Source: Thuidium tamariscinum
Lineage: Eukaryota; Streptophyta; Bryopsida; Hypnales; Thuidiaceae
Length of the DNA: 64,000 nt
Direction of reading: 5' to 3'
NCBI GenBank assembly: GCA_947034885.2
Contig: OX344754.2
Location: 28,579,369-28,643,368, forward strand
Shown here in pieces: positions 11,719-63,197 of this stretch. The position numbers were made by a program, and so were the translations under genes. A model generated the notes under the pieces. The model was not told the DNA's origin. It searched no databases and saw only the letters and a list, made by a program, of their open reading frames with translations. Positions within the stretch are counted from its first letter, which is position 1. Each line of letters begins with the position of its first letter.

Positions 11719-12156
11719 TCAGCTGCTCACGGGAACTTTGTGCTGGGTGATGAAATTTTCGAATTCAGGCGTGTTGAAGAAGCTGGTGGGCTGCACGCGT
11801 CGGCGACGAGCCATAGCGCGCGGCTTCCGTGGCGCCGGCGGGCAGAAGCCCACGTCCACGTCGGGTATTCTGTGCTCCTTCGACTTGGGCGTCTCGCACC
11901 CTGACTCCAATTGCGCGACGGTGGCGACACTGAGCTTCTCCTCCCTAGTGACGTCCACGGTGAGCGCCTTCGCATGAGAAAACTCCCTCAGCGTCGTCGT
12001 GGTGGTTGAGCTTCCCGAACTCCCGGATGTGCAAACTGGCCACAGAATCGGCAAACAAACCCAACTGTCGAGAGACAGTCGTCGTCTTCCCGTCCCCATC
12101 TCCAGAAGCTCAAGGGATGGTGCTTGCAACATCGGACAAACCGTCGCGGGCGCCAT
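11719..12156 (-). CDS. SIAMESE-related (SMR) cyclin-dependent kinase inhibitor, copy A
   Basis: This intronless frame encodes 145 residues. Residues 87-98 read C-E-T-P-K-S-K-E-H-R-I-P and residues 105-113 read C-P-P-A-P-R-K-P-R. Together these are the signature of the plant SIAMESE/SMR family, small nuclear proteins that bind CDK-cyclin complexes and block mitosis, often promoting endoreduplication. A basic patch (R117-R120) could serve in nuclear import. Residues 126-135 (F-F-N-T-P-E-F-E-N-F) match the family's C-terminal FF..P-D/E-L/F-E-x-F motif. The N-terminal half holds a serine/threonine-rich run (residues 44-55), as is common. The length is within the usual range for the family. The start is the first in-frame ATG after an in-frame TAG at 12205-12207, and it has G at -3 and GCG after it. 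A longer reading from a TTG codon is not credible. The member number within the family cannot be assigned. Confidence 0.93.
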   Translation of the reverse strand: MAPATVCPMLQAPSLELLEMGTGRRRLSLDSWVCLPILWPVCTSGSSGSSTTTTTLREFSHAKALTVDVTREEKLSVATVAQLESGCETPKSKEHRIPDVDVGFCPPAPRKPRAMARRRRVQPTSFFNTPEFENFITQHKVPVSS

Positions 12157-13100
12157 TGCTTCAATGCTTGAACTCGAGCTCAAAAATCCAAATAACCCCA
12201 AATGCTATAATCACAGCGCCAACTAATATGCAAAAAGTGTGCTAGAAGAACTCCACTCAAGATCACACCTCCAAGACCTCAAACACTACTCAAAAAACTC
12301 CTATTAGTGCTCCACTCGAAGATCACACCTCCATAACCTCGACACGTACGGCCACCTACAAGAAACACAACCCCCCAAATGCCATTCCAAAATCACCTCC
12401 AATTTCCACTGCAAACCAACGCTCCCCCTCAACGTCCAACAAGAGATTAAAACCTTCAATGCTTAGACCTTCCAATGTCAAGCATTAAGATACTTATTCT
12501 TCTGCGTAACTCCCCGATTCAGATTCTCAGAGACAGAAAAAAAGGCTCCCAGTTTAAAGTGCGATCTCAGACCTCGTTAAACCTCGCCAACAACTAACGC
12601 CCCCTGTTTCGAAGACAAAACAACAACCAAAGACGTAATAAACTCCCCGCAGCGCAGCTTTTACTGAAGTGCAACTAACTTAACAAGCAAGCAAGCACGG
12701 GACTATTGTCAGATGAGAGCAGGAAGGCGATGAAGAAATGAATAGCGAGGCGTGAGCAAGGTGGGGTTTAAGGCCGGCCTGATGAAGAGCAGGGATTCCG
12801 CTGCAGCAGCATAGTATATGCGGGTCCCAGGGATGCTTCTCTTCCTCAGTTCTCCCTTCCGGCAGCAGCAGCCCACCTGCACTGGCGCCGGGTGGCTGGC
12901 GACTGGCGGACGGGACGGGAGACGCGTTTTGTCGCAAGGGTCGTCGCCTGTGACAGGTGGGCAGAGTGCCCGCGGGCAGTGGGGCAGATCGGTGGGAAAA
13001 AAACAGCGCCGCCATCACCGCGAACCTCACCTGGGATTGATGAGAGGGGCTGGGTTGATTTTATTAATTCTGGGTTTATTTAAATTTTAATTCTGGCCAG
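12157..13100 (-). promoter_or_regulatory. 5' flank and probable promoter region of SMR-A
   Basis: This GC-richer block lies upstream of SMR-A in its direction of transcription. It holds pyrimidine-rich stretches and a strongly GC-rich core at about 12830-13030. I found no convincing TATA box at a sensible distance from the ATG, so the transcription start is not placed. Overlapping open frames (for example 12818-13090 plus and 12680-13030 minus) are best explained by composition. Confidence 0.45.
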
Positions 13101-13339
13101 CGAAGGAACGAAAGCGGTGTGTGCTTTCATCATGATTTTCTAATTACTTTTGGGGAGAAATTTAATTAAGGTATAACAAACATGATTCTTTTATTGCTTA
13201 AAGTAGAGACACCACAAACCGACATTTTTTCTGCCATATATCTTTAATTATTATTAGATCGATGATTTTTTTTTCATTTTTTTCATTGGCAAATGATAGG
13301 AGATTTTTATGCACCGAAAATCGCATCATTTAGATATTA

Positions 13340-13681
13340 GAGTTATTCGTAAAGTCCTCTCTCAAACTCCAGTTTGCAACCTCGATGTGGAAAGTGGGGA
13401 CCAAACTTTCTAAACCTCCAAAAAGGTGAGAAAAAAAAATTGGACCGGAGTTTGAGGGAGCCAATGAAGGTTCATGACACATCCCAAGATTTTAGCTGCC
13501 ATTGTTTCCCCCCCCCCCCCCCCTTCCAAGCCTCAAACCAAAGCCAAAACCATGCCTAAATGGGCCACCGTGTAGTCCCAACTCAATAAATGTGTGTCTT
13601 GTATGTATCAGACTAGCTAAATCCGGTTTCAAAAGTGAGGACGAAACTCTAGAGAACTCCAATTCACTTTGCGAATAACTC
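13340..13681. mobile_element. MITE with GAGTTATTCG terminal inverted repeats
   Basis: The left end GAGTTATTCGTAAAGT and the inverse of the right end GAGTTATTCGCAAAGT differ at one base of sixteen. TA flanks each end (13338-13339 and 13682-13683). The length is 342 bp and no protein is encoded. The internal run of about 16 C at 13508-13523 is a slippage-prone tract. TA target sites again suggest a Tc1/mariner-like source of transposase. Confidence 0.82.
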
Positions 13682-13689
13682 TATTGCAT

Positions 13690-15640
13690 TCAAAAGTTTT
13701 GAAAAATATTAAAAAAATATTTGGTAGGTGTTCCCAATGCTATTTCTTGTTCAATATTTTAGGATAGGTACAAATTGATTTTGGAGATATACATGGTGTA
13801 GGCATCTCATCAAGTGGTACTTCAATAGTCATTTAGTGCACCTTAATGTCCTTATCTTAGATCATTTTTTATTTTTTTCCCCTATGCTTAATACAATTAT
13901 AATGAATTCATCTCTAAAATGAAGTTTAAAAAAAATCAAGGCAAAGATGGTATTACAATCTTTAATAGAAATGGAAGGGGGGCTTTCTACAAAAGCATTA
14001 TCATAAGATTATATTTGTATTATAGTAGAGGCAGCAACAAGTTGTATAGTGGAGGAAAGCACTAACAACAAAAGTGTTGCATTCCATAATCAATTGAATG
14101 AACCAATTTGATGGACGTAATTTCTCAAGGTACATCTAATTCTGTATATAAGGGATGGAACAAGTAGAGTTTGGAGGAAGAAATGGTTGTGAATTTTGAC
14201 CTTGAGGGTTTAGGATTTTGGGTGAAATTTGCGGTTGGACCAAAAAGCATGTGACTTGTAGCAATAGAAGTGCTTATATACTTTTAACCAATAGTCCACA
14301 TATATATTTCTACATAAAACTTCAACCTCCAAAAATCCCTAAAGAACATTCCTAAATTTCTCGTGAACAAATAGAATGTTTTAAACATCTTCATGTGCCA
14401 TCATTCAACATGCCAAATGGATCATTCATTAGTTCATCGGGATCCCCCGTGACTCTAAAGAAATATAAAACAATACCACTGAAAATCTTTTAGATATACC
14501 AAAGATGTCATGAAGGTCCAAATTGTTTTTTGTTAAGGTGATACAACTGTTGCTCCCATGAAGTGGTTGAAATTTAGAACATATTCCTAGAAAACTAACT
14601 TATTTTCCCGTGTTCAATTTTCTTAAGAAAAGCAAGTCAAAAACTAAAACCATAAGAATTTGCCCAAACTTTTATTAAACTTTATTTACTTTAAATTTTC
14701 CAAGGCTCTATTGCAAGCCCTAATTATGGGCTCTATTGTACCATGTTGCATCTCAATGTAGTTGAAAATGCAAAGGATTTCTATTATAATAATTTCATTT
14801 TAGAATCAAGCTAAAAGGTTTCAATTTCATGACTCCAATGAATATTACCACAGAATTTCTATATTTAGTAAACCTCCATTAATTATTATCTTACAATCTT
14901 AAAAGGATGCCTTTGACATTACATTCAACAAAATGCTAAACCTTCATTCATTATTTCATAGTCTTCAAGGATGCTTTTGACATAACATTCAATATCATGC
15001 ATTGTAACTATCTTGGCTCTATAGTAATTGATGTGGAATATTTCACAACCAATATTACTTCATCAATAGCTAAGTAGACTGGTAGAGGCTCAATGTCATG
15101 AGCAAGGTGCATGAAGGAAAAACAATGGGCACAAAGGCTACTAAGTGCTACAAAATGGACTGTGATAGGGAATGAAATTAAAGATATTAAAATCCAAATA
15201 GACGAAAATTGTTCTTATTGGAGGCCATAGTAGAAAGCTAAATATTCTTTTTTCATGTAAGGAATATTGATTAGATGTCTTATATTGTATCTTCTTGTTC
15301 GAAAATAAGTTGGTTGAAATATTTATTGAAAAGGACCCGATTTTGGTCAAAAATGACCCTAAACTACCCCATGTGATGGCATAGGTAGTAGATACTATTA
15401 GGTGCATCTATGATGTTGCCAGTTCAATTTCTTATATTGAAATTGCTTGCATAGCAGTATTAGTCATGTTCTTCATCTTTTGTCCTGACCAAGAAGCCTA
15501 TGCCATGTAATTTTGAATTAAGTTTCCGGTTATTGAGGATATTGTGTTGTGTCAATCTTCAAAGGTTGTATGTTATAAAAAAAAGGACCTTATTTTTTAT
15601 TTTAAATATGAATCTAATTAATTTTAATACATATACCAAC
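13690..15640. other. AT-rich intergenic DNA, no feature seen
   Basis: Only short, stop-bounded frames are present and no repeat ends were recognised. Confidence 0.5.
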
Positions 15641-15657
15641 CAAAGCACCTACAACCT

Positions 15658-15712
15658 TGGCTTAGTAGCTTTGACCTTGTCACAACTATGAAGTGGTTAT
15701 GGGTTCAAACTT
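15658..15712 (+). repeat. Possible tRNA-derived SINE head (A box and B box)
   Basis: TGGCTTAGTAG at 15658-15668 fits the RNA polymerase III A-box pattern TRGYNNANNNG. GGTTCAAACTT at 15702-15712 resembles the B box GGTTCRANNCC except for its last two bases. The spacing of 33 bases between them is normal for tRNA-like promoters. The intervening sequence does not fold as a good tRNA, so this is not a functional tRNA gene. The 3' limit of any SINE is not visible. Confidence 0.3.
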
Positions 15713-16159
15713 GAGTATTTTCAAGGTATTTTACATCAAATCCCACCTAAATATAGAAGAAAATCAAATCACCTCATTGTCAAATGATGTTCTCGTAGAT
15801 GCTTCATTCATACAGTTTCTTCAAATTGCAATTAATCTTCTTCTTATATGCAATAACCCAAGGAATGACAATGGACCATCCTACTTTAGTCCATTAATGG
15901 TAAAATCATTGAAACATCTTAATAACTTCCATTAATGATTTTGTAACTTATGATTTGGATTGTGATTACTCATTTATGGATTTTTTTTCAATCTCAAGTG
16001 AATGTGAGATTTAGGGTGTTTTACAGGAAGGCTAGACCTACTTACCATTGTCACAGACTGTGGCATGCTTCATTTCATTAGACATGACTAATAGAAGAGA
16101 GAACCTAATACAAAAAAATAGTAATAACAATTTTGCATGGTTGAGGTGTAAATTGGGGA

Positions 16160-16396
16160 GAGCTAGCATGTGAGCATTGACTCTTTGAGCCCATAAGCCT
16201 AACACACTCTACATTATAGACACCTTCTATTATTATAGATGTCTATGTTATAAGTATTTATGTCATAGACTCTCTCCATGTTATAGTGAATATATACATA
16301 TCTTATAAATACCTTCAAATGATTATTGAAACTTATCTACAATTAGATGCAAGAGTCATAGGCTCACACCTTTGTTCTCATGTACTAGTATTGTTG
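16160..16396. mobile_element. Family F (GCTAGTATGTGAGC-ended) element
   Basis: The left end reads gctagcatgtgagca and the inverted right end reads caatactagtacatgaga, an imperfect match. The interior has several short palindromic motifs built from tattatag and ctataa. Related copies occur at 27396-27859, 37195-37425 and 38438-38644. No protein is encoded. Confidence 0.5.
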
Positions 16397-17108
16397 GTAC
16401 CAAGCTCTAACTTTGTGGTGTAGTGCTCCACTTCTTCTTTTTAACATATACCTATATATGTGTATAAATACTTGATATTTAAGAATTGATCATCAGTAGA
16501 AAGGAGGGGAGGGGTTTGATTACTAAAAAATAGTATAAAAGTAAGAAACCTAAGGCTTGTATAAGCATAAGTTTGGTGTTGACAAAATTAATTGTAAAGT
16601 GCAGGCAATGCCTAACCATTCAAGTGCTAAAGTTTGGAAAAAAAGATAAGATGATACTCCTTAGAGCACCTAAATTGAGGTCCCATGGAGTTTATTGTTG
16701 TGATTCTTTTCTACTATTATTAATTATACCTTTCTCTTACACTTACTTATTAATACAAAACCAACTTTATGATTCATTCTAATGTAGACCTTGAGTTCCA
16801 CGCTTTGATACTATTCATTGATGCATGCGCTAAAGACCACCTTTCTACTTGTGGATGCAAAATATAGGAAATATTTGAAGGAACTTTCTGCTAATGATAA
16901 TAGTGTCCCTCATGAAAATTCATTGATTCTAATCAAGTCCATAAGACTTCTTTGCTTGAACAAATACGTGGTCATGATTGATGTTGTAACTTCTCTATCA
17001 TCTAAGGTTAGGTGATCCAAAAGCAACCATTGTAATAATGAGGCACATTTCACTTTCTCCAATGTACCAATGATGTACAAGAGGTAATTGCTTTCAAGGA
17101 TCGTTGCA

Positions 17109-17176
17109 TTTCAACTTCAAAAATTTGTAACTAATTCCACAAAGGTCCAAAAAATAAGAAATGACTTGCATTAGAT
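17109..17176 (+). repeat. Fragment of family A element
   Basis: About 70 bases here match the central part of family A, running from cttcaaaaatt-gtaactaattc through caaaaaata-gaaa-gactt to gatgc. No terminal repeats accompany the match, so it is an old or truncated copy. Confidence 0.5.
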
Positions 17177-17354
17177 GCTGATTCCATTTTTATTCTTAGA
17201 GTAATTAACAAAACAAATTTCAAAATTGAAATTAGTTGTTAAAAAAGGTTGCTTTAAAAGCAAACTACCTTCATCCCATCCCCATTTGCTTTTATATCTT
17301 TTTCTTTTTCTTTTCCTAAACAAACTGTAAAACGGAATTTCGTTTGCTATACAA

Positions 17355-17735: not shown

Positions 17736-17739
17736 ACCG

Positions 17740-18600: not shown

Positions 18601-18610
18601 GAGGTAACTA

Positions 18611-18939
18611 AGGTAGGAAGCTTGAAAACCGCCCAGGCTCCAAAATCGTCCACCTTCCAAAATGTACATTATCTGTACATGATGCTTTTTAATCTTTAAT
18701 GCCAAAATAATACAGGAATGTACAAACAGTGTACATTTTAGGGTGTGGGCAGTTTTGGAGCCCTATGCTATATTGACTTCAGAAATTCATGAAAGCTCCA
18801 AAAAATATGAAACGACTTGGTTTGAATGCCTATTCTACTTGTCTTTCAAGGAAAAGTCGCTGAAACATAGTTCAAGATGTTTTACCTCCCAAAAATTCAG
18901 CTCCAGCCCTTAGATGGTTGGTTTATGGACCTCCTACCT
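18611..18939 (+). mobile_element. Family A TIR element, copy 2
   Basis: The ends are AGGTAGGA and its inverse TCCTACCT-like, flanked by TA at 18609-18610 and 18940-18941. The 329-bp body follows copy 1 from the double ccaaaa-ccgc motif through the ggtacatgatgct segment to ccagcccttagatggt. The internal inverted repeat with ggttttggagccctatgc is retained. It differs from copy 1 by many substitutions and one extra short insertion near 18700. Confidence 0.8.
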
Positions 18940-19229
18940 TAATCATTGCATGCAAGTGATAGAGTTTTGTAGAGGGTATTTTTAGCAGGGAAGGAAAATC
19001 AATTAAAAACCAAAGGCAAAAGAAAACAATCGATCAAGCTTAGGAGGCCTAGTAAGTTTGGTAGATAGGCTAGAATAGAAAATATTGTCTTTGCACCAAG
19101 AGTCAAAGAACTCTTAGGTGATGGCACCCTATCTATCTTCTATTTTCTAATTACAAATAATAAGAAGGTGGTTACGTCATGCTATGCCTGTAAGGATTGT
19201 ATCCTTCCAAAATTGTTGGCAAATTAGTA

Positions 19230-30800: not shown

Positions 30801-31304
30801 CCATTAATATAGGACAACCTAATTTTACTATTTAGGGCCGACTTACATTTAGAAGCTAGATCCATTTGCTATGTCAAAGGCCAAGAATCCTCACTTGTAA
30901 TTAGTTGAAAGGTTGAATCAACCTATCCTTGTTTATACTTTGAATTTGGGCCAATTCAATGGTTAAAAAATTTTATTCCAAAAAGATATGATCTTATATG
31001 GTTAGAGTTCATTGAATTGGGTGCACTAAAAATGAGAGGCCAATGTTAGACTTTAATTTAAAGGATTTTATCTCATAGAATATTTTTTTTCAACAAATCA
31101 AATTTGTTGAATTTTGTGCAATTGGCCTCAAGGGAAATTGGTCCAACCTCTACATGTAAAGGAGTCCTAAAATTTTAGCCTTCCTCTTGTTTTTTTCAAA
31201 GTTCTTTTTAATCAACCGGGCTTCTTGAGCTCAAGGCCTTTACACATGCCAAAATCAACTTTTGCTATATTCTTATTCTATTGCATAGTTAAAACCTGTC
31301 TTTA
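27860..31304. other. AT-rich intergenic DNA, no feature seen
   Basis: No supported gene. Frames of 60-126 codons (for example 29294-29674 minus) are lysine-, isoleucine- and phenylalanine-rich, as random AT-rich DNA produces, and carry no motif. Confidence 0.5.
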
Positions 31305-31511
31305 AGGAAGGAGGCTTGAAAACCGCTCAGCCTCCAAAACTGCTCACCCTTTGAAATGTATATTTTTGGTACATGATGCTTTTTTATCTTTACAAAAATG
31401 TACAACCAGTGAACATTTGAGGAGGTGGGAAATTTTGGAGCCCTATACCATATTGACTTCAGAAATTCATAACTAATTCTTTATAGCTCTAAAAATTATG
31501 AAACGACTTGG

Positions 31512-31516
31512 GTTTT
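31512..31516 (+). repeat. Copia target-site duplication, left (GGTTT)
   Basis: GGTTT lies immediately before the 5' LTR and is repeated at 35755-35759 right after the 3' LTR. A 5-bp duplication is the expected signature of copia integrase. Confidence 0.92.
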
Positions 31517-31713
31517 GTTGAGATAGGATGATAAACGATCCTAGTTACATGGATGATATTCATAGTACCCTCCTATCGAGGGTTCATACCCCCCTACCGA
31601 GGGTTCATATCTTCCTATATAAATATATCTCCAAAGCCTCACAATACAGTTATTGGTTTTACTTCCTTGAGTTCGAGGGTTGTGTGTCTTGCTTTTGGCT
31701 ATCCATGACAATA
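31517..31713 (+). repeat. 5' LTR of Ty1/copia element
   Basis: It begins TGTTGAGATAGG and ends gacaata, corresponding to the TG...CA boundary with the final C changed. It is 197 bp, 20 bp longer than the 3' LTR because a segment around cctaccgagggttcat is duplicated in tandem. A TATATAAATA box lies at 31616-31625 and is a likely core promoter. Apart from the duplication, about half a dozen substitutions separate the two LTRs. Confidence 0.92.
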
Positions 31714-31795
31714 CGTGATCAATACGATTTGTCTCTCATTTTGCTATTCTCTTTTTCTATTTTCTTTTCCACTATTGTCTTTAGCTACGATAGCT

Positions 31796-32134
31796 ATGGC
31801 GGATAAGAAGTCACTGCGGGAGAGTAGCTCCCGGATACAACCACTTTTGTTTGATGCTCTTGAAGCAGATGGTAGCAATTACATGGAGTGGAGTATAGAT
31901 GTAAAAGCGTACTTTTATTCAGAGGAGTTGGACAATGCGATCAATGATGAACCGGAGGAGGATTTTCCAATGTCATCCAAGTGGAAAGCTTTGCTTGTTC
32001 TTCGTTGCCACCTTCACACCTCTCTTCGACAACAATACATCCAAGTTGACAACCCAGCGGAGCTATGGCGGGTGATTGCAAGAAACACCTGTCTTATTTG
32101 TTGCGTTTGGCTGATTTTTTCGGGAGTACTTTAA
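31796..32134 (+). pseudogene. Copia gag, N-terminal part
   Basis: The translation from M-A-D-K-K contains F-D-A-L-E-A-D-G-S-N-Y-M-E-W, typical of the copia gag N-terminus, and N-P-A-E-L-W, where the family commonly has an A-x-x-L-W-x-x-L phrase. Homology stops near 32085, where AT-rich DNA unrelated to gag follows. The gag core normally continues for another hundred or so residues, which are absent. Confidence 0.85.
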
Positions 32135-32583
32135 AATTAGAAAATTAATTTTAAAAAAATTTTAAAAATATGAATAGTGTATATACCTCTAAGATGAAGG
32201 TTTTCACCGAAGGAAATGGATAGAAAAATTCTCTAAGCAGGAGAACTTGAAAAGTGCCAAACCTCCAGAAAATACATCCCTTCATGTTTTAATTAGGGAA
32301 AAATAGTAAAAATAGATATTTTCAAAAAATAAGAAGTTTCAATTTGCAACAACTTTATGGAGATGGTCATTCACAAAAAAAAAAAACCAAAATAATATTT
32401 TATATGTTTCAAAATACAAGCAGAAGGGAGCTCTTTTTGTAGACCTCCACACCTCACAAAATTAACTTTTATTTAAAATCCTTCCCCGGAAAGTTAGAAG
32501 TCTATTAGAAGACCATCTCATCCAAATTTCATGTTAAAATCATTAAAAAAAAGGTATAGCTCAGGTATTAACAGTATAGAAAC
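32085..32583. other. Unrelated AT-rich insert or replacement within gag
   Basis: This segment has no gag coding character although gag homology lies on both sides. It has replaced about 100 gag codons. I found no clear terminal repeats or target duplication, so its origin (a nested element, or filler from break repair) is undecided. Confidence 0.55.
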
Positions 32584-33120
32584 ATGAAGTTTAAGACTCA
32601 TTCCGAACTAATGTCCTACCTTTTACTTGATGAAAAGGAACACCAACTTCTTCTCAAGAATGTAGAAGCAAAACCTGCCCAGGAGGCTCACACCTCTGAG
32701 ATCTCGAGGCAACAGCCACGGGGAAACAAACAACAATGGGAGCGATCACCAACACGGCGACACCCTAGAGATAAGTCCAAATTCTCTAAACCATCGACTG
32801 ATAGAGTTTCATGGTCTACTCAAAACTTAAATCGTTCATTTCGACCATATAAAAAATCTTTTGATAGGAACGTCGAAAAGAAGTCCTCTTTTCGTGACAA
32901 CCGTGACAAGCGTACTTGTCACAAGTGTGATTGCGAAGGGCATATTGCTAGGGACTGTCGCACTTCTCAGTATTTTGTGAGTATGTATGAGGAGTTACAA
33001 CAACTTAGAAACGAAAAGAAGGAGGCTCATACCTTAGATGCCCCTTCTTCTTCTGAGCTAAATACCAAAACTTACATGGTATATACCTCCAAAGAGTCAC
33101 CCCCCCGAGACTCTCATTGA
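32584..33120 (+). pseudogene. Copia gag C-terminal part with CCHC zinc knuckle
   Basis: Residues near the start (F-K-T-H-S-E-L-M-S-Y-L-L) match the end of the copia gag core. A basic, serine-rich linker follows, and then C-H-K-C-D-C-E-G-H-I-A-R-D-C at about residues 110-123, a CCHC knuckle that binds RNA. The frame runs into a stop just after a C tract near 33102, where the protease continues in another frame. Confidence 0.88.
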
Positions 33121-33344
33121 TAGTGCCACAACGCATACAATTCTTAAATATCCAAAGTATTTCACATTTTCTGGCCATAGAGCCGCTTGGCAAACTTGTG
33201 ATATAGTCACAATTGCTGGAAGTCGGAACTTTCGGTTCCGAGAGGGCCAGGCAACTATAGTATTGCCTGGGGGGACCCCCCTTCTGTGTAAAAAGGCTAT
33301 GTATGCCCCTGATGCCCCCCGGAGCCTGATTCAGCTACCGTGAT

Positions 33345-34220
33345 TTGCGGGCCAATGGAATTCATGTCTCCACTAATGTGGACAACCATGAAGAGGTATT
33401 GGTACTCAAGCAAGGAAGGTACCGCCTTGCCATTGCGAAAGCAGGAGTCACTAGCCTATATGAGATATTTATAAGTCCTGTGCAGGCATCTTTCCACTTC
33501 TCCTCTACGGCGGGAGTTGATGAAGAGTCCGGGACCTCAGGCTATGGCCAAGCAACCCACGTTACTGCAAAAGAAGCTCATGGACTATTATGTGAAAGCA
33601 ACCCACGGGGCTCTGCTTTGGTACTCCCATCTCCAACTAAGATTAGATTGTGGCATAGTTGGTTGGGCCATCCAGGTACCACTTTGATGAGAAAAATGAT
33701 ACCATTATTGGAAGGACATACTTTGAGCACAAGTGATGCTGACAAAGTTGGAAGCTGTGGAGCATGCTCACAGGGCAAATTTATTAAGCACCCATCTTAT
33801 TGGAAGTTACCAACGGAACTTCCCCCTATATTGGAGCGCCTACAAGTTGACATATGCGGACCCATTACTCCAGCTTCCGGTCCATTTCAATATTTTCTTG
33901 TATTGATTGATGCTTCGGGCCAACATGCAGAGGTGTCTTTGCTCAGCACTCAAAATTTGGTATTTTCCAAGCTCTTGGCAATGCTTATTAAGTTTCGAAT
34001 TCATTATCCGGACAATCCCGTGAAGAATTTATGGATGGATAATGCCCAAGAATTTTGTTCTCATACTTTTGAGGATTATCGTATTGCCAATGGGATTTCA
34101 TTGACATACTCTATACCGTATGAGCATTCACAAAATGGATTGGCGGAGGCGTATATCAAGAAGATCCAGCTTATTACTCGGCCTTTATTGATTCATGCCC
34201 AGTTGCCCACTACAATGTGA
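33345..34220 (+). pseudogene. Copia GAG-pre-integrase and integrase core
   Basis: L-W-H-S-W-L-G-H-P and C-G-A-C-S-Q-G-K form the His-His/Cys-Cys zinc-binding module. The integrase D-D-E residues are visible in order: D-I-C-G-P, then M-D-N-A-Q-E-F, then N-G-L-A-E. The frame ends early at 34220, where an internal deletion removes the rest of integrase and the N-terminal reverse transcriptase. The listed start is not a real initiation site; it is the middle of the polyprotein. Confidence 0.9.
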
Positions 34221-34329
34221 GGGCATGCAGTTTTACATGCACAGCTACACTACTCAGGTTCCGTCCTACCCTACTCAATACTCAATCTTCTCTTGAATTA
34301 GTATCCGAGAAAGTATTCTGGCCTCAAGC

Positions 34330-35444
34330 TGCAACGAGCTCTCTATGGATTAAAACAAGCCGGCCGCATGTGGTATAAGCATCTACGAGATTTTTTGATT
34401 GACCATAAATTCCAACATGACTCAACCCTTCCATGTATTTTTACTTCGAAGGATGGAAACGGCTTTGTGATAATTGCCGTATATGTTGATGATCTCAACT
34501 TGATTGGTACACCTTTGGCTTGCCGCCAAACGGTGACACTCGTGACCACTCACTTTGAGATGAAACTACTTGGTCGCACTTTTTTTTGTCTTGGTTTGTA
34601 GATCTCACACCTACCTGATGGTAGTATATTTCTTCACCAAACAGTGTACACTCAACGTTTATTGAAACATTTCCACATGCATCAAGCCAATGCTCTGTTT
34701 GCACCTATGGATGGTCGGAGTAAGATGTATGATGACTTGTACCACCCTTGCGAGGAGGAGGAGGAGGAATATGACAAGCAACGGTACCTCACAGCAGTTG
34801 GAGCATTATTGTATTTATCCACTTATACTCGACCAAACATAGCATTTGCAACAAGTGTTTTAGCTCGCCACAGTCAAAAGCCTACAATACGACACTGGAA
34901 TGGAGTCAAGCATCTATTTCGGTATCTCCGTGGAACAGAAGACTTAGGGCTTCACTACACCAAGAGCGCAACATCAAATTTAGTCGGATATGCGGATGCT
35001 GGTTTCAAATCGGATGAAAACACCAACAAGTCACAAACAGGTTATATCTTTCTTCATAATAATGCACCTATATCTTGGAAGTCAGTGAAGCAGACAGTGA
35101 CAGCTACATCAACCAACCATGCGGAGTTGATTGCGTTTTATGAGGCGACAAGAGAAGCAGTTTGGTTGAGGACAATTCACAAGATCATTTCACACCAATG
35201 TGAACTCAATCAAAGTATGGAGCCAACAGTGATTCATGAAGACAATGCGGCATGCGTGGCACAAGTTACAGGCGGATTCATCAAGGCTGATCGGACCAAG
35301 CACATTAGTCCATAGATCTTTGGATTTACTCAAGACCTTATTGAAGCACGAGAAATTAAAGTGGAGAAGGTTCAATTTTCTCATAACATTGCAGATTTAC
35401 TTACAAAGGCACTTCCAGCTTATATGCATAAACGATTAGTGTAG
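34330..35444 (+). pseudogene. Copia reverse transcriptase C-terminal part and RNase H
   Basis: The frame resumes at L-Q-R-A-L-Y-G-L-K-Q-A-G-R-M-W-Y, the copia RT phrase. Y-V-D-D-L-N carries the catalytic Y-x-D-D. RNase H follows: Y-A-D-A-G-F, then S-W-K-S-V-K-Q, then A-E-L-I-A and, after an in-frame stop at 35313, T-Q-D-L and N-I-A-D-L-L-T-K. Two nonsense changes, at 34599-34601 and 35313-35315, are in the same frame as the flanking coding sequence, so these are point mutations rather than shifts. Confidence 0.9.
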
Positions 35445-35568
35445 AAAGCCAGTATGAGGTCTCTTTAAGATCTCACTTCACATTAGGTTACACTCTTTTT
35501 CTTTCTGTGAATTTTCCTTACAAAGGTTTTTGTCACAATTAAGTTTTTTAACGAGGTAACCTAGGATC

Positions 35569-35577
35569 GAGGAGGAG
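35569..35577 (+). promoter_or_regulatory. Polypurine tract of the copia element
   Basis: GAGGAGGAG lies immediately before the 3' LTR, the position at which plus-strand DNA synthesis is primed in LTR retrotransposons. Confidence 0.7.
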
Positions 35578-35754
35578 TGTTGAGATAGGATGATAAACGA
35601 TCCTAGTTACATAGATGATATTCATAGTACCCTCCTATTGAGGGTTCATACCTTCCTATATAAATGTATCTCCAAAGCCTCACAATACAGTTATTGGTTT
35701 TACTTCCTTGAGTTCTAGGGTTGTGTGTCTTGCTTTTGGCTATCCATCACAACA
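35578..35754 (+). repeat. 3' LTR of Ty1/copia element
   Basis: It begins TGTTGAGATAGG and ends CACAACA, giving the canonical TG...CA limits, and is 177 bp. It carries the TATATAAAT box at about 35657-35665. It lacks the 20-bp tandem duplication present in the 5' LTR. Confidence 0.93.
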
Positions 35755-35759
35755 GGTTT
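35755..35759 (+). repeat. Copia target-site duplication, right (GGTTT)
   Basis: Exact copy of 31512-31516. The family A sequence resumes immediately afterwards. Confidence 0.92.
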
Positions 35760-35978
35760 GATGCCTATTCGAGCTGTCTTTCAAGAAAAATTCACTGAAA
35801 AATATTTCAAGATGTTTGACCTGCCCATAACTCTGTTCCAGCCCTTAGATGGTCGGTTTATGAACCTCCTCCCTTAACCTCTTTCAGGGCTGAAATTTTG
35901 TGCAATTGGCTTGGAGAGGAATTGGCCCAGCCTCTGGGTGTAAAGCACCCTTTAGTGTAGGGGTCAGCTTGTAGAAAC

Positions 35979-44770: not shown

Positions 44771-45382
44771 TAGGAGAGGACTTGAAAATGGTGCAAGCTT
44801 TTCAAATTGTACAGTAGGGGGTTGTGAAATGGATACTAGATTGTAGAAAAATGGACTCTTGATTACATCAAACCATGATAAGAGTTGTTTTTTACTTCTT
44901 CAATGGATGGTTTAAGCTCCAAAATGGGCTCATTCCTAACTAAGTCGATAGGTGTCTACTAATTTTATTCAAAATAAGAATTGGTAGTCCAACTCTCTTC
45001 TTACAAATGTTAAATTTTTTGAAATAATGATTGATTCAAGCATTCATTTTAGATTTAGAAAGGGTCGCATTTTGAAACCATCTCGATTACTTTTTACATG
45101 TTAGTTTTTACAATGTTAGTTTTTGGACAAAGACATAATCTTTTCCAAGCCAAACATGTGTGGATTTCCAAAGCTTATGAGACACAAATAGGGACCTATG
45201 CCAGATTTCGTTTGAAAATTTATAAGTAGTTCATAAAAGGTCTGAAAATCATGAAATAACTTGTGTTACATTCCTTGTTTATTTCTCTTTCACTGAAAAT
45301 GAGTGAAAAATATTACCATCCAAAAAAATACATGAAAAAGGTGGACCAGCCCTTAAATGAGCGGTTTTTTAGCCTCTTACCT
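44771..45382 (+). mobile_element. Long family A relative, second of two in tandem
   Basis: It starts aggagaggacttgaaaat only a few bases after the preceding element. It ends with ccagcccttaaatgagcgg and then CCTCTTACCT followed by TA. The last 200 bases align well with family A (gggacctatgcc, aattt-ataa, aaa-catgaaa-aacttg, ttcactgaaaa). Its length is about 612 bp and it has no protein. Confidence 0.65.
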
Positions 45383-49500: not shown

Positions 49501-49762
49501 TTCACCTTGCCAATTAATTCGATATCCAACATATACACTAATTGTTGACTACGTGAAAATCAAAGTGAGTTACATAATAGGATAAATAACAAATATCTCT
49601 ATATATATCCTAACACTACACTTCATTATTAGTATAGTTTACCTATGTCCCTTTTTATTGAATTATTTTAAATAACTAAAGTGCAAACCATAATAAAATT
49701 GTACTAATTTCGACCATTGTTTTTTCCTTTGGAGTATCACTAATTTCTCACACTATAAATTA
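46577..49762. other. AT-rich intergenic DNA, no feature seen
   Basis: No gene or element ends were recognised. A short (ta)n tract lies at about 46656-46667. Confidence 0.5.
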
Positions 49763-50087
49763 AGGTAGGAAGTTTGAAAACCACTCAGGCTCCAAAACTG
49801 CTTACGTTTTCAAATGTACATTGTTTGTACAAGATGTTTTTTTAATCTTTATAGGAATGTAAAAACTATGTACATTTGAAGGTGTGGACAGTTTTAGAGC
49901 CCTATGCCATATTGACTTAAAAAAATTCATAACTAATTCCACATAGCTCAAAAAAATATGGATCGACTTGGGTTAGATGCCTATTTCACTTATTTTTCCA
50001 AAAAAATTCACTAAAATATATTTCAAGATGCTTCACCTCCCCCAAATTCAGTTCCAGCCTTGAGATGGTCAGTTTATGGACCTTGGT
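49763..50087 (+). mobile_element. Family A TIR element, copy 4, right end damaged
   Basis: It starts AGGTAGGA after TA and follows the family through ccaaaact-gct, gtttgtacaagatg, gttttagagccctatgcc and ccagccttgagatggt. At the right end the expected CCTACCTTA is replaced by a sequence reading ttggtagg, so the terminus is mutated or lost. Confidence 0.75.
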
Positions 50088-52255: not shown

Positions 52256-53770
52256 AGGGTCCACGGCCCAAAGGGCCGTTCGAAAAATTTGTCCTTTTAT
52301 TTTAATTGGTTTTATCCGTCGCTATCCTATGGCTATGTAATACCCTGATTGGTTTCCTCACGGGTATCAATCAGTAAACCCGGGCCGGTTATCAATCAGA
52401 AAGGGGGTATCGGCAAGTCGAGGTGGGCCAGTGAATCCGCCGTAGGCGCCTGTCTACGAGCTGCGTCGCGTCGGAACCTGCTTCGGCCGTGTCCGTCTGC
52501 GCCTCGACAAATTCTCTCGCTATCAATTTGGCAATCAATTAGTTCAGAACAGCATGATTCACAAATTTTCACTGTGAATGCCCGATTACTCGGATCAATC
52601 AGTCACTAATCAAACGATCACAGTCCAGTTATGCAACCAGAACCACGTCAATCACCTCCTGTGACTCCAATTTTTGATCAGCTTGTAAGGTAGACAAACC
52701 CATACCCGACCTTTTAAGCAGATAGGGTGCTACAGAGACTTTGGAGGATGGGAGGAAATATTGACAAGATTAGCCTTTTTGTACCCAATGTGTGCACAGA
52801 AAAAAAAAAAAGATAATATAATATAACAAAGTTTTTATTTGAGTGCAAAATCAGGACTAGTAGGTCCCTAAAACCAGCTCTAGATCTACACTATGGCCGA
52901 GCCTTTGTTGACCTAAAACTGACTGCTGTGAATAATAAAACATTTAGAATTGGACCTTATTCCACCAACATAGAACTGGGAGACAGATGCCCATGTGTCA
53001 TTGCCAAATGCAGAGCACGTCATCATTGCAAGCCTGTTTCCAAATCCGCTCTGACAAACCAGAAACCCGTCAATTAACCCCTCAAATTAATGCACTCCCA
53101 ATCCCATCACCGTCTGCCACATTAAGTACAGAACTTTTAGATCTCAACTGCTCGGTGAAAGAGCCTGATGTAGGGTGCGGCATTGGGGACCAGTCGGAAA
53201 TGGGTTTGCCTACCTTAACACCAATTTGGTGAAGTCCAACTCACCGTGATCTCAACCAATCCTTTTGATCGCTACTGGGGTGCCGTCGTCTCCAAATCTG
53301 ACCGCCGCAACTCACCCACAACCAAATTAACACGGACAAGCGATCGATCCGAACTTCACAATCAGTCACTTCAAACTCCAAGTAAATCCACCAGCGCATC
53401 GATTGATCCCGGCCTCCCTTTCCACTTCTCCAATTTGAAAGAGAAAAGAAAATACAAATCCAGAAACAAATTTCTCAAACCGAATTTAGAAGACACTCAA
53501 ACCTCAAAAACCAGATTCAGCATTGAGACACAAATTTTTACACGATTGCACAGTAACACAAATCTAATATATATATATATTGCAAGTACTAAAATTACAC
53601 GCGCAAGGAAAACGCACAGGTAGCGCACTATTGTGATGGAAAAATTATCAACAGTATCGAGAGAGAGAAGGAGAGAAGGAAAGGAATTTAATTGTGAATC
53701 CCGGGGGTGATCAGAACGAGTGTAACGCTCGCAATCGGCGTGACTTCTTTGTGCACCTCCTGAAACCCTA
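52256..53770. other. GC-richer island, no gene recognised
   Basis: The composition is clearly less AT-rich than the flanks. The 125-codon plus frame at 53246-53623 and the 81-86 codon frames beside it are rich in serine, threonine and basic residues but carry no recognisable motif. A (ta)n tract lies at about 53568-53580. The island could be a 5' region, a degraded gene or the end of an unrecognised long element. I found no LTR pair. Confidence 0.4.
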
Positions 53771-55579: not shown

Positions 55580-57880
55580 TTTAAAAAAGTCTTGCTAACT
55601 TAAGTGGCTCTACAATGTTCTAGGGTTTCTAGAAGCTTACAACTTGTTTTCGATGGACAGGGTGAGTTGACTTGTTGCTTCGCTACTCAAGAAAATGCTC
55701 AAATTTTTTATTTTCCATACATGGAAAAATACACAAATTTTGATTTCATATTTGCAGTCAAAGGCCCAAAATTCATTTAGAGAAGTGCTTGGGATAATTT
55801 ATTTGAGCACAAAATAGAAGGCTTTTATTGGCTTTGTCCTTTTGGACAAAGTCCATGGCATTGACTTTGGTGGATTTGAATCTCTATTTCCAAATCTTAT
55901 CTATAACCCTATTCACACTACAATACAATGATATAGACAAACATTTGTTGGAGGTGGTGGTGTTGGAACCCTATTTAGTTGAGGGGGAGGTAGATTAGGA
56001 CCTAGGTAAATCCTTGAGTAGCCAAGGAGGGTTGTCTAAGCAAACTTCATTGGATTTGCTATTTATTTTATTTTAATAATTTTATTTATTGTTTTTTTTC
56101 TTAAACACATGGACAACAACCATTGATAGAGGAAACAATACATGTGAACCAAGGATGAACCCAAGCAAAGGTAAATTTTTTGTCTTCTACGTCCAAATTC
56201 AATATTACTTTCAAACTTCACTACAAAGCTAGAAGCCAACAATGGCCATCAAACCAACTACACTAGATTGCAATAATTTCTAAAAAAATTCCCTCTATTT
56301 AGTATTTTAGTATTTTAAGCAATAAAACTAATATTATTGTTCACCTAAGACAAAGCCTCATGGTCACACCATTCTTGTTTTACCTTACACCTTGGGATTG
56401 ACTTGGAGTGGCTGAGCTAGGAAGCCACTTTCACTTGACCTTTCCAACTACTTGTAGAATTCAATATAGCTCCTAGGTACATTTGCTTGAGGGGGGGGGG
56501 GGGGAATTTCTTGTGTGGAGAAATAGATTTCATACACATTTGAAAATTATTATGATTTTTTTAAATTAAAATTCCATTAAACCTATTCTTGATATATGGA
56601 TTTGTCTAATTCTGACCATAGGTTGGTAAAAAATTCAAAAGAAATCAATGGCTCATAGTGCATCATAATGGATTAGTTTTCTCTACCTCCTATGCTTGGA
56701 AATAAAACAACTTAAAGTGTGGAAATAGAGGGGAGAGGGAGGTGATTAGAAAGGGGTTGACTGCTTTAAGTTAGCTTGCAACCCAACTTGATAGGGGACA
56801 ATTTACAAACAAGTCAAAAATAGGTGCAATTATCTTAATAGAATTTTTGTGTATTTCTTGTAAGTCAATTGCCTTTAGAAGGCAACAAAGATTAAACCTT
56901 GCATTCTCAATAACCTATGTCATTGACCTAAAGCACAATTACATTTTTACTAATTTTTCTTGTTTTAGTGTGTGTAACACAAATTTTCCAAACTCTCACT
57001 ATATGAACTAATGCATGCATCTTCCTATGGAGATTTTTGAAAGCCTAGATAAATTTGAACTTGAAATTGTTTCTAGGAAGCATTATTTTTTTTCCAAATG
57101 GGTGTATGAATACCTTTATACATTCTTATAGTATTCATTAATAATAATGTATTGAAAAAAACACTCTTACATTCAATCTTCACTTATGGCACTTTTAGAA
57201 CAAATTCTCATGATAAATGACAATTTTAGAACAATTTTAAAATCACAACCGTACCTTGTATTTTAACCCTAAATTCTTAAGGAATTATATTTTAGTATTG
57301 CATGAACTTTGAAATTAAATAAAGTCTTAACTCCTAAAGCCATGAAGTGTGTTTTTTTGGCAATATAGTGATTTTGGGCAACTCACATATTGAATTTCAA
57401 AATGCAATGAGTTTTTTTTTGCAAGGAATGCCCCAAAGATTCCCAAATTGCCCAAACTACCCAAATATATTTAGGCATTATAACTTTGATCCAAGCACCA
57501 AATTAGAAAAAAAAAATCTATAATGATGGGTACTTGCTAACACCTTGTATCAAAATTTTGTCATCAACCAACTAAAATTGACTTTGTAGGAATCTACATG
57601 AATTGAACAAATACTTGGTTCTTCAAGAATTTTTTTTGTTAGTAGGATTCAGCTTTTCTAATGCTTAATTGGGTGGCATAACTTTTGCTCCTAAGGGCAA
57701 ATTGAAATAAAAAAATTATATTTATACAAAGCTAATCCATGGTCTTGTCATGATATTAAATCATGAAAAACATTGGGATCATACAAATTTGGCCAAACCT
57801 TCCAGTGTCTTATGAGGGAACACTTCAAACACTTGCAATTTTAGGGGATAGAACAACTGCACATCTTCAATGCACATGTT
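55580..57880. other. AT-rich intergenic DNA with a poly-G tract
   Basis: No gene was recognised. A run of about 14 G at 56491-56504 is the only striking simple feature. Confidence 0.5.
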
Positions 57881-58610
57881 ATATGCAATGTGTTCTTTCT
57901 CGCAATTGGTGCAAAATTGCACCAAATTTTTTAGCCTTGCACCAAGCCTATAAGAAAAAAACAGTAAAATATTGGATGAAATCACCAATAAACTTCAGTT
58001 TTTTTATAAATATTGGATGAAATTGCCAAATAATGGATGAAAATAGAATGATAGATATATATTATGTGCTAATATGATATTTTCAGTCCAATATATGGAT
58101 GAATGTTGAAATTTGGAGCTCCACAATAAGATGAAATATTGCCAGTTTGGCGCTTCATAAGAAATGAAAAAAAAACCCAGTGCCCCTCCTCTTCGTTGTT
58201 GGGTCTTTAGGATTTTGGTCCCAATTGTGCCAAACACTTTGCTCCACTCCCTCAGTACTTTGTGATTGTGATTTATTGATTCTCAACTTCTTGCGGCATG
58301 TTGTTGCTCAGCAACAGGATTTTTTTGGGGGCTTTCTGGTGCCAGATTGCACCTGAAAAAAAGAATTTGGCTAAAAAATGACAACAAATTGAATTTTTTC
58401 TGTTAAATAACTTCAAATATAAAAAAGGATCGTGGATGAAATTACTAGATTGTAAATGAAAACAAAACTTTTGACATGGGATATGTGCTAATGTGATGTT
58501 TTGTATCCAATGTGTAAATGAATGCTAAAATTTGGGCACCAATATAACACTTTATATCGCCACTTTGGCACTTCATAAAAAATGAAAAAAAACTCGGTGC
58601 TAAACAATGG
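57880..58610. repeat. Direct repeat pair related to the CACTA interior
   Basis: Two segments, about 57890-58180 and 58330-58600, run in parallel. Both have a ggtgc...gcacc-type motif, then tggatgaaatt, then atgtgctaat-tgat, then atgaatg-t-aaattt, then tttggc-cttcata-aaatgaaaaaaaa. The same order (ggtgcc-aaagcacc, gtggatgaaattgcc, gttggatgaatgt, gttggcactt) is found inside the CACTA element at 9520-9780. No CACTA termini were found here. Confidence 0.55.
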
Positions 58611-58708
58611 CTTGTTGAAAGCTTACCATTGCCCTAGGTTTTAGCATGAGCTTTGAGTTTTGTGTTCTTATGTTATGATGAAGTAGCATTGTGCAATTAA
58701 ATATGGTA

Positions 58709-59380
58709 AGGTAGAACCATCCATAACCAAACAACATCCTATAGCCAACATGTACATGGATGTAATTCTACTTGAGGATAAAATGTTTCTTTTTCTCCTT
58801 TCCAAATTTGGCACAAAAATTCATGGCTCATGTGCCAAAGAGTGTACAAGAAAGTAGGAAGCAACAAGTAAAGAAGTAGTTTTTTGAATGATTGGAATTA
58901 AAAGAGTCCATAGAATGGCTAGAGGTCCAGTGAACCTTTTGCCTTTCAAAATTCTTAGCAATTTCAATTCATGTGATAAAATTACTGAAGTTTTTGCAAT
59001 CCCCATTATTTCTATCATTGCACCTCTGAAAATATTTGCTTTCCCTTGCACTAAGGTAGGTACACCTAAATGGCCACTTGTTCTTACTGTGCGTAATTCC
59101 TGTCATCATGATGTTCAGATTTTTATATAGTCTTGTTGGCGAGTGAAAACATGTTCCAACGCACCAAAGAACATAGGATTTGGATATTGTATGCAAAAGT
59201 TATAAATGGTGAAAGCCTGTTTCTGAAATGGCCATCTACAATCTGGATACATGACTAATTCTGGAAATGTATGTACATTGTAGATGGTGCTTTAAGGTCA
59301 AGTGCCATTTTGGATGTACCTACCTTACACCAGATCATATCTTAAATACCTTAAATGATCGCTTATGGATGGTTCTACCT
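58709..59380 (+). mobile_element. Family B TIR element, copy 2, with nested element
   Basis: The ends AGGTAGAACCATCCATAACC and the inverse of the right end AGGTAGAACCATCCATAAGC match almost perfectly, and both are flanked by TA. Removing the nested element and its duplicated TA leaves 398 bp, against 400 bp in copy 1. No protein is encoded. Confidence 0.88.
59054..59325 (+). mobile_element. Family C TIR element nested in family B
   Basis: The left end AGGTAGGTACACCTAAATGG and the inverted right end AGGTAGGTACATCCAAAATGG mirror each other, and TA flanks both sides. The undisturbed family B copy at 50551-50950 has a single TA at the matching site (gcac-TA-cac, 50896-50897), so the pre-insertion state is visible. 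The element is 272 bp and encodes nothing. A diverged relative lies at 2641-2973. Confidence 0.92.
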
Positions 59381-59988
59381 TAAGATTCTTTGGCACTGAG
59401 AAACACATTGTATTTAAATTCACCTTGTAAGAACTTCTGGCAATGGGGCTCCACTTACCGGCAAGTGCACACTAGAAGAAACCGACACATTCCAGTTGAT
59501 AATTTTGTGTTAATCTAACACAACTGTGTTAAGAAAATAATGCAGCATTAAGGGATTTTTGAGGCCATTGGAAGACTACGGGTTCTCAGACTCCGAGAAT
59601 GCAGTTTTTTCCACGTGAACAGGAATCCGACATGGTCGAGAGAGTGCCACGTCATTATTATTATTTTTGAAATTTTGGGTAAATGCTGACCTAACAACGG
59701 CTAGTAGTTATGGAAACAGTTTCAGGGAACAGCCCCAAAACGGCCCTTTGAAGGCCTCAAATCCCCTCTAATGTTTCAACATTATTTTTAAAGCAGGAGG
59801 GTTTGGCCAACAGTAAGCTTACTCCCTAAGTGACTCTTTGCTGCGAGCAGAAATTGAGCTCACATTGGTAACAGTATAATGTGGACAGATAACTTAAAAC
59901 ATGTACATTGCAAATTACAATCAACTAAAAAGTCCTCCATCAGTAAGTTCATTGTCATTGTGTGAAGGATACTTACGGAATGAAGGTC

Positions 59989-60323
59989 CTAGGTAGAAGG
60001 CTCAGGAATCACCCATCTAAGGGCTACAACTGAATTTTAGGGAGGTGAAACATCTTGAAATATTTTTCAGTATATTTTCCTTGAAAGACAAGTGGGATTG
60101 ACATCTAACCCAAGTCATTTCATATTTTTTGGAGCTTTTTGAAATTAGTTATCAAATTTCGAAGTTGAAAGGGCACATGGCTCTAAAATGGTGCCCTAGC
60201 TAAAATGCACACTGTCAATACACTGTTGAAGGCTATGAAAAAGAAACATGTACAAATACTGTACATTTCAGGTAGGGCACCGTTCTAGAACCTGCTCCAT
60301 TTTAGAGCCTTGTAACTTACCCC
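59989..60323 (-). mobile_element. Family A TIR element, copy 5, diverged and inverted
   Basis: The reverse complement follows family A from ctgaaaaatatttcaagatg through cccttagatggg. The ends are eroded (ctaggtagaaggctc on the left; ccttgtaacttacccct on the right). It is the only confident copy in this orientation. Confidence 0.7.
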
Positions 60324-62762
60324 TAGCTGGGCTAACTTAAAAGAGACTTCAAATAAGTTACGGTGGCACCAACAATTCACCAAGATCAGGCTGATTTCTG
60401 TGTGCAGAAAGATCCATCTACCTCAACTGCAATTTTCTGCACAACAAGACTGAGTTGGGTAAGTTAGTTGTACTGAAATCAAAACTCAAATTAATGGACA
60501 TGGGTGACATTTCGAACCAAGTAATGGAGCATGCAATGTTTTCAGAGACCTACTTGCATTCATTAGCCAGGGCAAAAATGTAGTGGAATTGAGGTTTGTT
60601 ACTGATTACTAGTAATTCTCCTCAGCCCATGCCATGTGGACAATGCAGTCAACACTTCAGTTTTAAAAGTTCCTCTTAGTGTTAAATTTTTGAACATAAA
60701 ATAATATACTTGGAAAAGACATCAATAATGGGCTGCAGGGATGTGGGATGAAATTGGGGTAGTTGGAGGGGTGTCTGTAAGTTATGTGTTTAGAGAATTT
60801 CCAACTACCATGCACTCCGTAATTAATTGATGAACATGGTTGCTTAGAAACTGACCCCAAAAGACTTTTGATAATACATTTGACAAAGGTTCTATAGACT
60901 GGTTACAAATTTAGGGAGAATTATCCAACATGAGTACAAAACATGCATGATAGACCAAACTTTAAGACCCATATTTGTTGTAACTCATTGCAAAGACAAT
61001 GTTACGAGACAATGCTCACATTCTATGAAATGGGAGAATTCTCTCATTACTCTCAAATCCTTTTCTGAAATTTTGCACATTTTTGCTCAAGTCTTTGTAC
61101 AATTATTTTATTTTCTACCATTGTCTCAAGTCTACAGTAGAAAAAAGCCACACCTTTTGGAAGAATGAGAAACTATATGTACAACTCAAGACATGCCCCG
61201 AAAGTACCTCTATTCATCACACAAGAAATGCTTTTTGGAGATCCTAAGGGTTAAACCCTCCACGAAAGAAAAGAAACTGAAGATTATTCCAGTATTGCAA
61301 AACTAGCCTCTCTGTAATAGATTGTGAAGTATTATTGCCTTGGACGTTTTGAAGGAGGAGGCGTGCAAAGTTTGAGGAAGCTGAAATCAAGAGTTTGTGG
61401 CAAACCAAGTATGTGCCCAAAAGTTCAAGAAGCTTTTGAGCCTGCAGTAGGCAGGTTGCACACACAGCAGTATTTGCACAAGGTGATGGAAACCGAACAC
61501 AATTCCAGGTCCATTTTCTGGGAGTGCAGGCAAAATCAACCTTCATACATTCTCAGTCAGATGCACATGCAAGGCATCCGTAACTGGTTAGAGCAGAACA
61601 TGATTTCAGCTCCTGGCAAATCAGCAATCGTAGCCAGTAAAGAGAAAAACATGGAAAGGAAAAGGAAATGACTCGAAATGCTGTATCAAAAATAATGTCC
61701 AATGACAAATGATTGATTTGTCAATTTCCAATTAATGAATAAAAGAGAATGTGTTCTAGTTTCAAATGTGAAACTAGCCACAAACTCACACAATACTAGG
61801 GAATACTAATCTACTTGCTCTCTGGTTTGTGACAAATCCTTGTCACAAAACTTCAAATAATGTGTAAATTACTAAGAGGCGACAAATCACGCTTAGCAAC
61901 ACAATCAGCAAATGCCTCCCTGCACGGGAGTGCAGCAGTTCTGCAACTGGACGAGGATCGTCGCTTGTGTTCTATAAGTACTGCTAGGATCCCTTGCTCT
62001 TGTGCGCCAGTCATACAGCTTAATAAAACGCTTTCTTCACAGAGAAAGCTCTCGACACAGAAGGAACTCTGAACCAAACGCCGAGCCGGCATCTCCGTCC
62101 AGAAATGAATCCAGATCAACTCTCGGATGATGGGAGCAGAGCATAGTCGTGAGCTATGCTATGATAGAAGAGCAATACTTCAGTAAAGCACATTACTATC
62201 ATCCCATCCCTCGCTGGAGGCAGAAAGTCCATCCAGGGGAACAATCAGGAGCTTGACATTCCAGCAGCAATTACTGTCCTCGCGGATTAATCATAAAGAA
62301 TGGTTGAATAAGAAAATTGAGGCATCTCGCTCGGCGACATGCACTCTGAATCGTTAGAAGAGGGTCCAAGGACCTGCCACAACATTGCACATCAGTCAGG
62401 TAACAGTCTCGTCATACTAGATCTCTGTGCATTTTCGCCGCTTTGAAACTGTTAGTGCACGACTACCATGGGTTACGGTTGTCCACCTGACTGTAGAATC
62501 CTTCCGACATTCCTTCTGAAGTAATAAGAACTTCAAGAAACCATACATGGAGAGGGACGGATCTGAACCTGGAATGTAGTGTAGCGAGGACACCACATTG
62601 GGGCAATCGGAAAAAATGAGTATGTCTGGATGGCCTTGTACACCGTTCACAACCATATACCAACACCACGTCTTCGAACGCAAAGCAATCATGGAAAATA
62701 ACTACAAAATAGAAGCTCCAGCCATCACACCACACATCGCCCTACAGAGTCTTAAAGAACGC
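60324..62762. other. Intergenic DNA and probable 3' flank of SMR-B
   Basis: From about 61200 the composition becomes GC-richer. The last few hundred bases before 62763 should include the 3' untranslated region of SMR-B. Overlapping frames occur on both strands, the longest being 115 codons at 61324-61671 plus. That frame has balanced composition but I do not recognise it, and a 100-codon frame overlaps it on the other strand. Confidence 0.4.
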
Positions 62763-63197
62763 TCAAAAGAGGTAACACGGGGACAAGCCCAAATCCTGCT
62801 GACTCGGTTTCTCGTAAGCAGAGGAGCACGCCATCGCCATTCGACTCACTCCGCGAGCTTTCTTGGGAGCAGGTGGGCAAATCTCCACATCGACATCCGG
62901 TATTTGGTGATCCGTGTCTTTGGGCGTCTCACATCCCGCATCCCGCGTGAGCTCTTCGCATTCACTGATCTCCAAACTCAAAGCGCAACACTGACCCCCC
63001 TTGGGCGTTCCCGAGCTTCCAGTAAACGAGGCAGCAGTCGTCGTCGTCGTCGTCGTCACAGTACGAACAGGGCGGAGACTCGGGAGCGAAACCCAGGCAT
63101 CCACGAGCGACAGACGGCTTCTTCTTCCAAACGGGCTCCCGAATCCCAAATTCTCCATAGCCTTGGGAGATTGTGTGTGCACCATAGTCGACGCCAT
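62763..63197 (-). CDS. SIAMESE-related (SMR) cyclin-dependent kinase inhibitor, copy B
   Basis: This intronless frame encodes 144 residues. Residues 89-100 read C-E-T-P-K-D-T-D-H-Q-I-P and residues 107-115 read C-P-P-A-P-K-K-A-R, the SMR signature that places it with plant CDK inhibitors acting on CDK-cyclin complexes in the nucleus. It shares R-L-S-L, a V-x-L-P motif, a threonine run and I-P-D-V-D-V with SMR-A, so the two are paralogues. In place of the C-terminal F-F-N-T-P-E-F-E-N-F of copy A it has A-Y-E-K-P-S-Q-Q-D-L: the proline aligns but the aromatic residues are lost. This could weaken or change partner binding. The start is the first ATG after an in-frame TAG, with G at -3 and GCG following. 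A start one codon earlier would be a GTG and is rejected. A plus-strand open frame of 282 codons across the gene is an antisense shadow. Confidence 0.92.
   Translation of the reverse strand: MASTMVHTQSPKAMENLGFGSPFGRRSRLSLVDAWVSLPSLRPVRTVTTTTTTTAASFTGSSGTPKGGQCCALSLEISECEELTRDAGCETPKDTDHQIPDVDVEICPPAPKKARGVSRMAMACSSAYEKPSQQDLGLSPCYLF

Follow-up and report, generated by a model that had tools for sequence, protein, structure and literature searches.

The two genes described here, A and B, likely form an old pair of SIAMESE-RELATED (SMR) paralogs in a repeat-rich land-plant genome, in which gene A would be a conventional SMR and gene B a CDK-docking form without motif C. They lie in a stretch of 64,000 nucleotides of Thuidium tamariscinum DNA, called the window below. 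Gene A is a single-exon SMR-type ORF of 145 amino acids at 11719..12156 (GC3 0.705), and gene B is a single-exon SMR-type ORF of 144 amino acids at 62763..63197 (GC3 0.600). Both begin with ATG, end with a stop codon and contain no internal stop, and the predicted proteins have masses of 16.0 kDa (A) and 15.3 kDa (B). The preliminary description had placed two genes on the same strand about 50 kb apart, and this was borne out: the ORFs have these outer coordinates, both are on the minus strand, and the distance between them is 50,606 bp.

Each gene sits inside a GC- and CpG-rich island, and the rest of the window is mostly AT-rich. In 500-bp segments, the observed/expected CpG ratio was 1.14 at 11501 (gene A) and 1.19 at 63001 (gene B). 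It was 0.12-0.60 at 9501-10500, 13501-14500 and 60501-62000, and 0.81 in the AT-rich segment 13001-13500. A 288-codon open frame without Pfam matches runs antisense to gene B (62580-63443, plus strand) and is probably incidental to the GC-rich coding sequence. The regions upstream of the genes were scanned for SOG1, MSA and E2F promoter words. One SOG1-type CTTN7AAG site was found upstream of A, at 12691; the word is palindromic, so this single site was tallied twice (2 versus 0.58 expected). No CTTN7AAG was found upstream of B in the 803 bp within the window, and no MSA core or E2F word upstream of either gene. The scan is not informative.

Assignment to the SMR family was based on motifs and similarity. 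The letters of motifs A and B were assigned in the two genes through Arabidopsis SIM and SMR1 sequences. In the alignment of A with B, motif A (TP...H.IP type) is present in both, ahead of motif B, which is proline-rich and followed by basic residues. In gene A, motif A is CETPKSKEHRIPDVDV (11851-11898) and motif B is CPPAPRKPR (11818-11844); in gene B they are CETPKDTDHQIPDVDV (62886-62933) and CPPAPKKAR (62853-62879), all on the minus strand. The motif names follow the scheme given in a passage of PMC10904545.

The two proteins are clearly similar to each other. BLASTP gave 48/117 identities and 73/117 positives (E=2e-20), and the local alignment score was 191, compared with a mean of 31, an SD of 5.6 and a maximum of 66 for 1000 shuffled sequences. 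The segment before motif A scored 78 against a shuffled mean of 28.2, and none of 1000 shuffles reached this value, so the likeness genuinely extends beyond the signature blocks. A T-run is part of it, but its core has the form RLSL-(x)-D-[SA]-WV-x-LP-x-L-x-PV. The preliminary description had put both genes in one family and had claimed shared sequence beyond the signature blocks, and these scores agree with both points. After motif B, the similarity ends (score 13 versus a shuffled mean of 14.4; 728 of 1000 shuffles were as good).

The combined signature C.TP.{2,4}H.IP.{3,8}PP.P[RKQ][KR], a post hoc pattern devised after A and B were known, had two matches when all six frames of the window were read and was absent from 100 Markov-resampled windows; on its own, the shorter TP.{2,4}[HKR].IP occurred in 17 of the 100. 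Scores of A and B against the Arabidopsis SIM and SMR1 sequences were 72-82, with shuffled means of about 30 and no shuffle as good in 500 for each comparison. The domain-search family match that the preliminary description had looked to did not appear: neither protein matched Pfam or NCBIfam up to E=10, in libraries that may lack a model of the SMR family, so that SMR membership rests on the motifs and the similarity. Among solved structures, no match was found for A at E<=1, and the three YidC chains matched by B (E about 0.8) were attributed to chance. The pattern had 15 matches in viral contigs and 56 in prokaryote genome contigs, and tblastn confirmed no relative in either set, as expected for a plant family. 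The motifs and the similarity support A and B as paralogs of the SIAMESE-RELATED type.

A and B resemble SIM/SMR proteins (SIM, SMR1-SMR16, rice EL2 and the maize ZmSMRs) in size and in the order of motif A and motif B, and A may resemble them also in its motif C-like end; B differs in having no motif C. The N-terminal RLSL-D-WV-LP-L-PV block is known here from the window alone. Both predicted masses fit the 8-19 kDa range of SMRs given in a section of PMC10904545, where ICK/KRP inhibitors are listed at 19-32 kDa. According to the same section, a motif C-type cyclin-binding segment is common to KRPs and SMRs; A and B differ from the ICK/KRP group in bearing motifs A and B, which are named there as common to SIM and SMR (PMC10904545).

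The genes differ at the C-terminus, a point absent from the preliminary description. In gene A, the C-terminus (11722-11820, minus strand) contains a basic stretch, RAMARRRR (11797-11820), and a motif C-like end, FFNTPEFENFI (11749-11781), with an E-x-E-x-F pattern. Its EFENFI scored 16 against the consensus EIERFF, and 4.3% of 5000 C-terminus shuffles were as good, so the motif is carried more by position and context than by score. Gene A may thus end in a motif C-like segment of the EIERFF type, of presumed cyclin binding, which the sequence shows weakly. The C-terminus of gene B (62766-62852, minus strand) is unlike that of A. No motif C was found in the B ORF, where the best EIERFF score was 4 and 58% of 5000 shuffles were as good. 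B is therefore classed as SMR-like and motif-C-less rather than as a full SMR, and is probably a CDK-docking variant of this kind. The direction of change was presumably a loss of motif C in B rather than a gain in A. No SMR without motif C was found in the titles or abstract openings of the papers searched, which does not prove that none exists. Counted by residues, the basic stretches hardly differ: A reaches five K/R in its richest octamer (RAMARRRR), and B reaches four (KKARGVSR). B has five S/T-P sites and A has two; A has two RxL-type words (RRLSL and KALTV) and B has none. Words as short as these may occur by chance.

An intron in gene B, with motif C encoded downstream, would also explain its absence from the ORF, and we regard this as quite improbable. 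There is a donor-like word, GTGAGT, at 62849 after motif B. Of the loose motif C matches, the closest to B is VDLDSFL at 62120; it shares the reading frame of B but lies some 640 bases beyond the stop codon, so that an intron would be needed to reach it. However, a coarse matrix with hand-set weights listed 11 donor-like words and ranked the one at 62849 only sixth. No acceptor adjoining 62120 was above the matrix cut-off, and the sole acceptor that was, at 61612, leads to no loose motif C match in an open frame. When the loose pattern was scanned in three frames downstream of B to about 52000, matches were scattered, and such matches are scattered downstream of A as well. In addition, gene A has no intron at the corresponding place. 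A hidden motif C exon is therefore unlikely, and the motif-C-less reading of B is kept below.

The divergence between the genes was quantified with codon methods, of which LWL85 and YN00 give no values for part of the codon sets. For the 101 aligned codons that run to the end of motif B, among which 54 residues are identical, dN was 0.42 and dS was 1.98 by NG86. With all 126 aligned codons, the unlike C-termini included, the values were 0.52 and 1.78 by NG86 and 0.55 and 2.24 by LWL85. Among the fourfold sites in codons for the same residue, 20 of 35 differ (Jukes-Cantor distance 1.08). Synonymous sites are near saturation. In the 28 codons of the motif A-B block, where dS is undefined, 17 third positions differ, compared with five first and five second positions. 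This third-position excess, together with dN versus dS, indicates that purifying selection has generally acted on both copies since an old split. The data support A and B as old paralogs.

The same pattern bears on whether B is a decaying copy on its way to a pseudogene. The missing motif C and a C-terminus unlike that of A would fit decay. Against it, the frame of B is still open, changes in the motif A-B block are mainly at third positions (17 versus 5 and 5), and the CpG-rich island has been kept at B. We consider decay an improbable account of B, and an old paralog that has kept motifs A and B is the preferred one.

The preliminary description had also proposed a local duplication followed by repeat insertion. 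When 7-16 kb was compared with 57-64 kb, the matches at E<0.01 were the 71-bp coding core (70%, E=0.004) and one probable repeat piece near 9.7 and 58.1 kb (E=7e-7). Thus, no convincing flanking DNA of the age of the duplication was found around A and B in these regions. This piece, of 180-200 bp, occurs in the same orientation downstream of A (9605-9790) and downstream of B (57990-58186 and 58409-58604); the only other match to it in the window, 58336-58415, is marginal (E=0.86). It was rejected as proof of a segmental duplication, since its A and B copies (69% identity) are nearly as alike as the two B-side copies are to each other (74%), which is the pattern of a dispersed repeat; a shared flank is also doubtful because neutral DNA of the age of the gene pair should have ceased to align. 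The piece is probably a dispersed repeat and, less probably, a duplicated flank.

A and B could instead come from separate old SMR clades and have come to lie near each other by coincidence or as part of a larger event, which is possible but on balance improbable, and would be compatible with the main functional reading. The near-saturated dS, the unlike C-termini and the absence of old shared flanks speak for it. The N-terminal block that both genes share apart from motifs A and B speaks against it (none of 1000 shuffles was as good), as does the A-B score of 191 versus 72-82 against the two Arabidopsis members; closer relatives may exist elsewhere. No literature on tandem duplication with SMR genes was found. 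A local origin of the pair is plausible.

The DNA between the genes has been widened by repeats. A degenerate Ty1/copia element lies on the plus strand at 31516..35754, with LTRs at 31516-31713 and 35578-35754 and a 5-bp target duplication (GGTTT); its coding part is split into several ORFs. The LTRs differ at 6 of 177 aligned positions and by a 21-bp indel. This divergence is about fifty times below the dS of the genes, an approximate ratio, since transposons may evolve at a different rate from genes. The insertion is far younger than the A/B pair, and it is the only dated insertion between them. It interrupts one of five copies of a dispersed 330-bp repeat (3155-3484, 18606-18941, 31302-31514 with 35755-35876, 49758-50083, and 59991-60310 in reverse), the aligned parts of which are 73-94% alike. 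Partial relatives of this repeat were seen near 17109-17226 and 45214-45308, and other repeat pairs, roughly 280-390 bp long and 73-76% alike, are also present (50549-50897/58707-59053; 17357-17738/55194-55578, in reverse; 24870-25152/39912-40202). By evidence within the window, repeats and the copia element cover at least 10,056 of the 50,606 bp between A and B. Of the duplication scenario, paralogy and a recent widening of the gap by repeats thus stood. A former adjacency of A and B stays conjectural, as dS is near saturation and no convincing old flanks were found; the young copia insertion is evidence of recent widening, not of an earlier adjacency.

Other content of the window was searched with Pfam in 58 stop-to-stop ORFs of at least 85 aa (a pair at 33008-33340 inside the copia element was left out of 60). 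At E<=0.01, the matches were the copia-type RVT_2, gag_pre-integrs, rve and zf-CCHC, and one POPDC1-3 (1 of 58 ORFs, E=0.00073), which was taken as chance and lay in none of the 10 ORFs that were rescanned. No Rfam match at the gathering score and no tRNA was found in the window. The earlier statement that A and B are the only two supported genes was partly upheld: apart from POPDC1-3, there was no other non-copia Pfam match, but genes without a known domain may exist, as A and B themselves match no Pfam family. Two GC-richer stretches, 1886-2622 and 52817-53620, contain several ORFs of 86-140 codons, three of which were scanned singly without a Pfam match; they are possibly unrecognised genes or old repeats.

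Published work on SIM and SMR proteins provides the basis for a functional proposal. A passage of PMC10904545 describes motif A as the CDK-docking segment, motif B as common to SIM and SMR, and motif C (EIERFF) as the presumed cyclin-binding segment common to SMRs and KRPs. According to the same source, SIM mutated in motifs B and C retains CDKA;1 binding, and motif A is also able to bind CYCA2;3 (PMC10904545). Complementation failed with a SIM construct that lacks motif C together with NLS1 and NLS2 (PMC10904545), a finding that speaks against B having full SMR function. PMC9505245 considers motif B of SIM indispensable for inhibition and gives cyclin binding as a possible role of motif C. 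In maize, all 12 SMRs are described as having motifs 1-4 in that paper's own numbering, apart from ZmSMR2 with motifs 1 and 2; the motif that interacts with cyclins is motif 1. Another passage states that ZmSMR1 is likewise without motif 3 (PMC7389639). ZmSMR10 showed no two-hybrid interaction with ZmCDKA;1 or ZmCDKA;3 and a weak one with ZmCDKB1;1, in a section of PMC10970704, and CDK docking can therefore not be taken for granted in all SMRs.

We infer biochemical activity and expression for both genes, and the following steps are proposed. In gene A, motif A would dock on CDK and motif B would be required for inhibition, while motif C and the basic stretch would serve cyclin contact and nuclear entry. 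Gene A would then restrain the G2-M kinase and favour endoreplication. Gene B would retain the CDK-docking half (motifs A and B) without motif C, and would most likely be expressed, as presumed here, as a weaker or partner-shifted inhibitor; alternatively, it may be a competitor of A.

A more specific reading is that an ancient duplication left a linked SMR pair between which the inhibitor is now divided: A would be the full form, and B a natural motif-C-less form that docks on the CDK but lacks the classic cyclin contact, and is perhaps a modulator or competitor of A. This reading is speculative, and we hold it to be doubtful. SMR-type genes slow cell division, and a neighbouring pair with and without motif C would be a ready natural comparison; otherwise, A and B would be just a further SMR pair from a plant genome rich in repeats.
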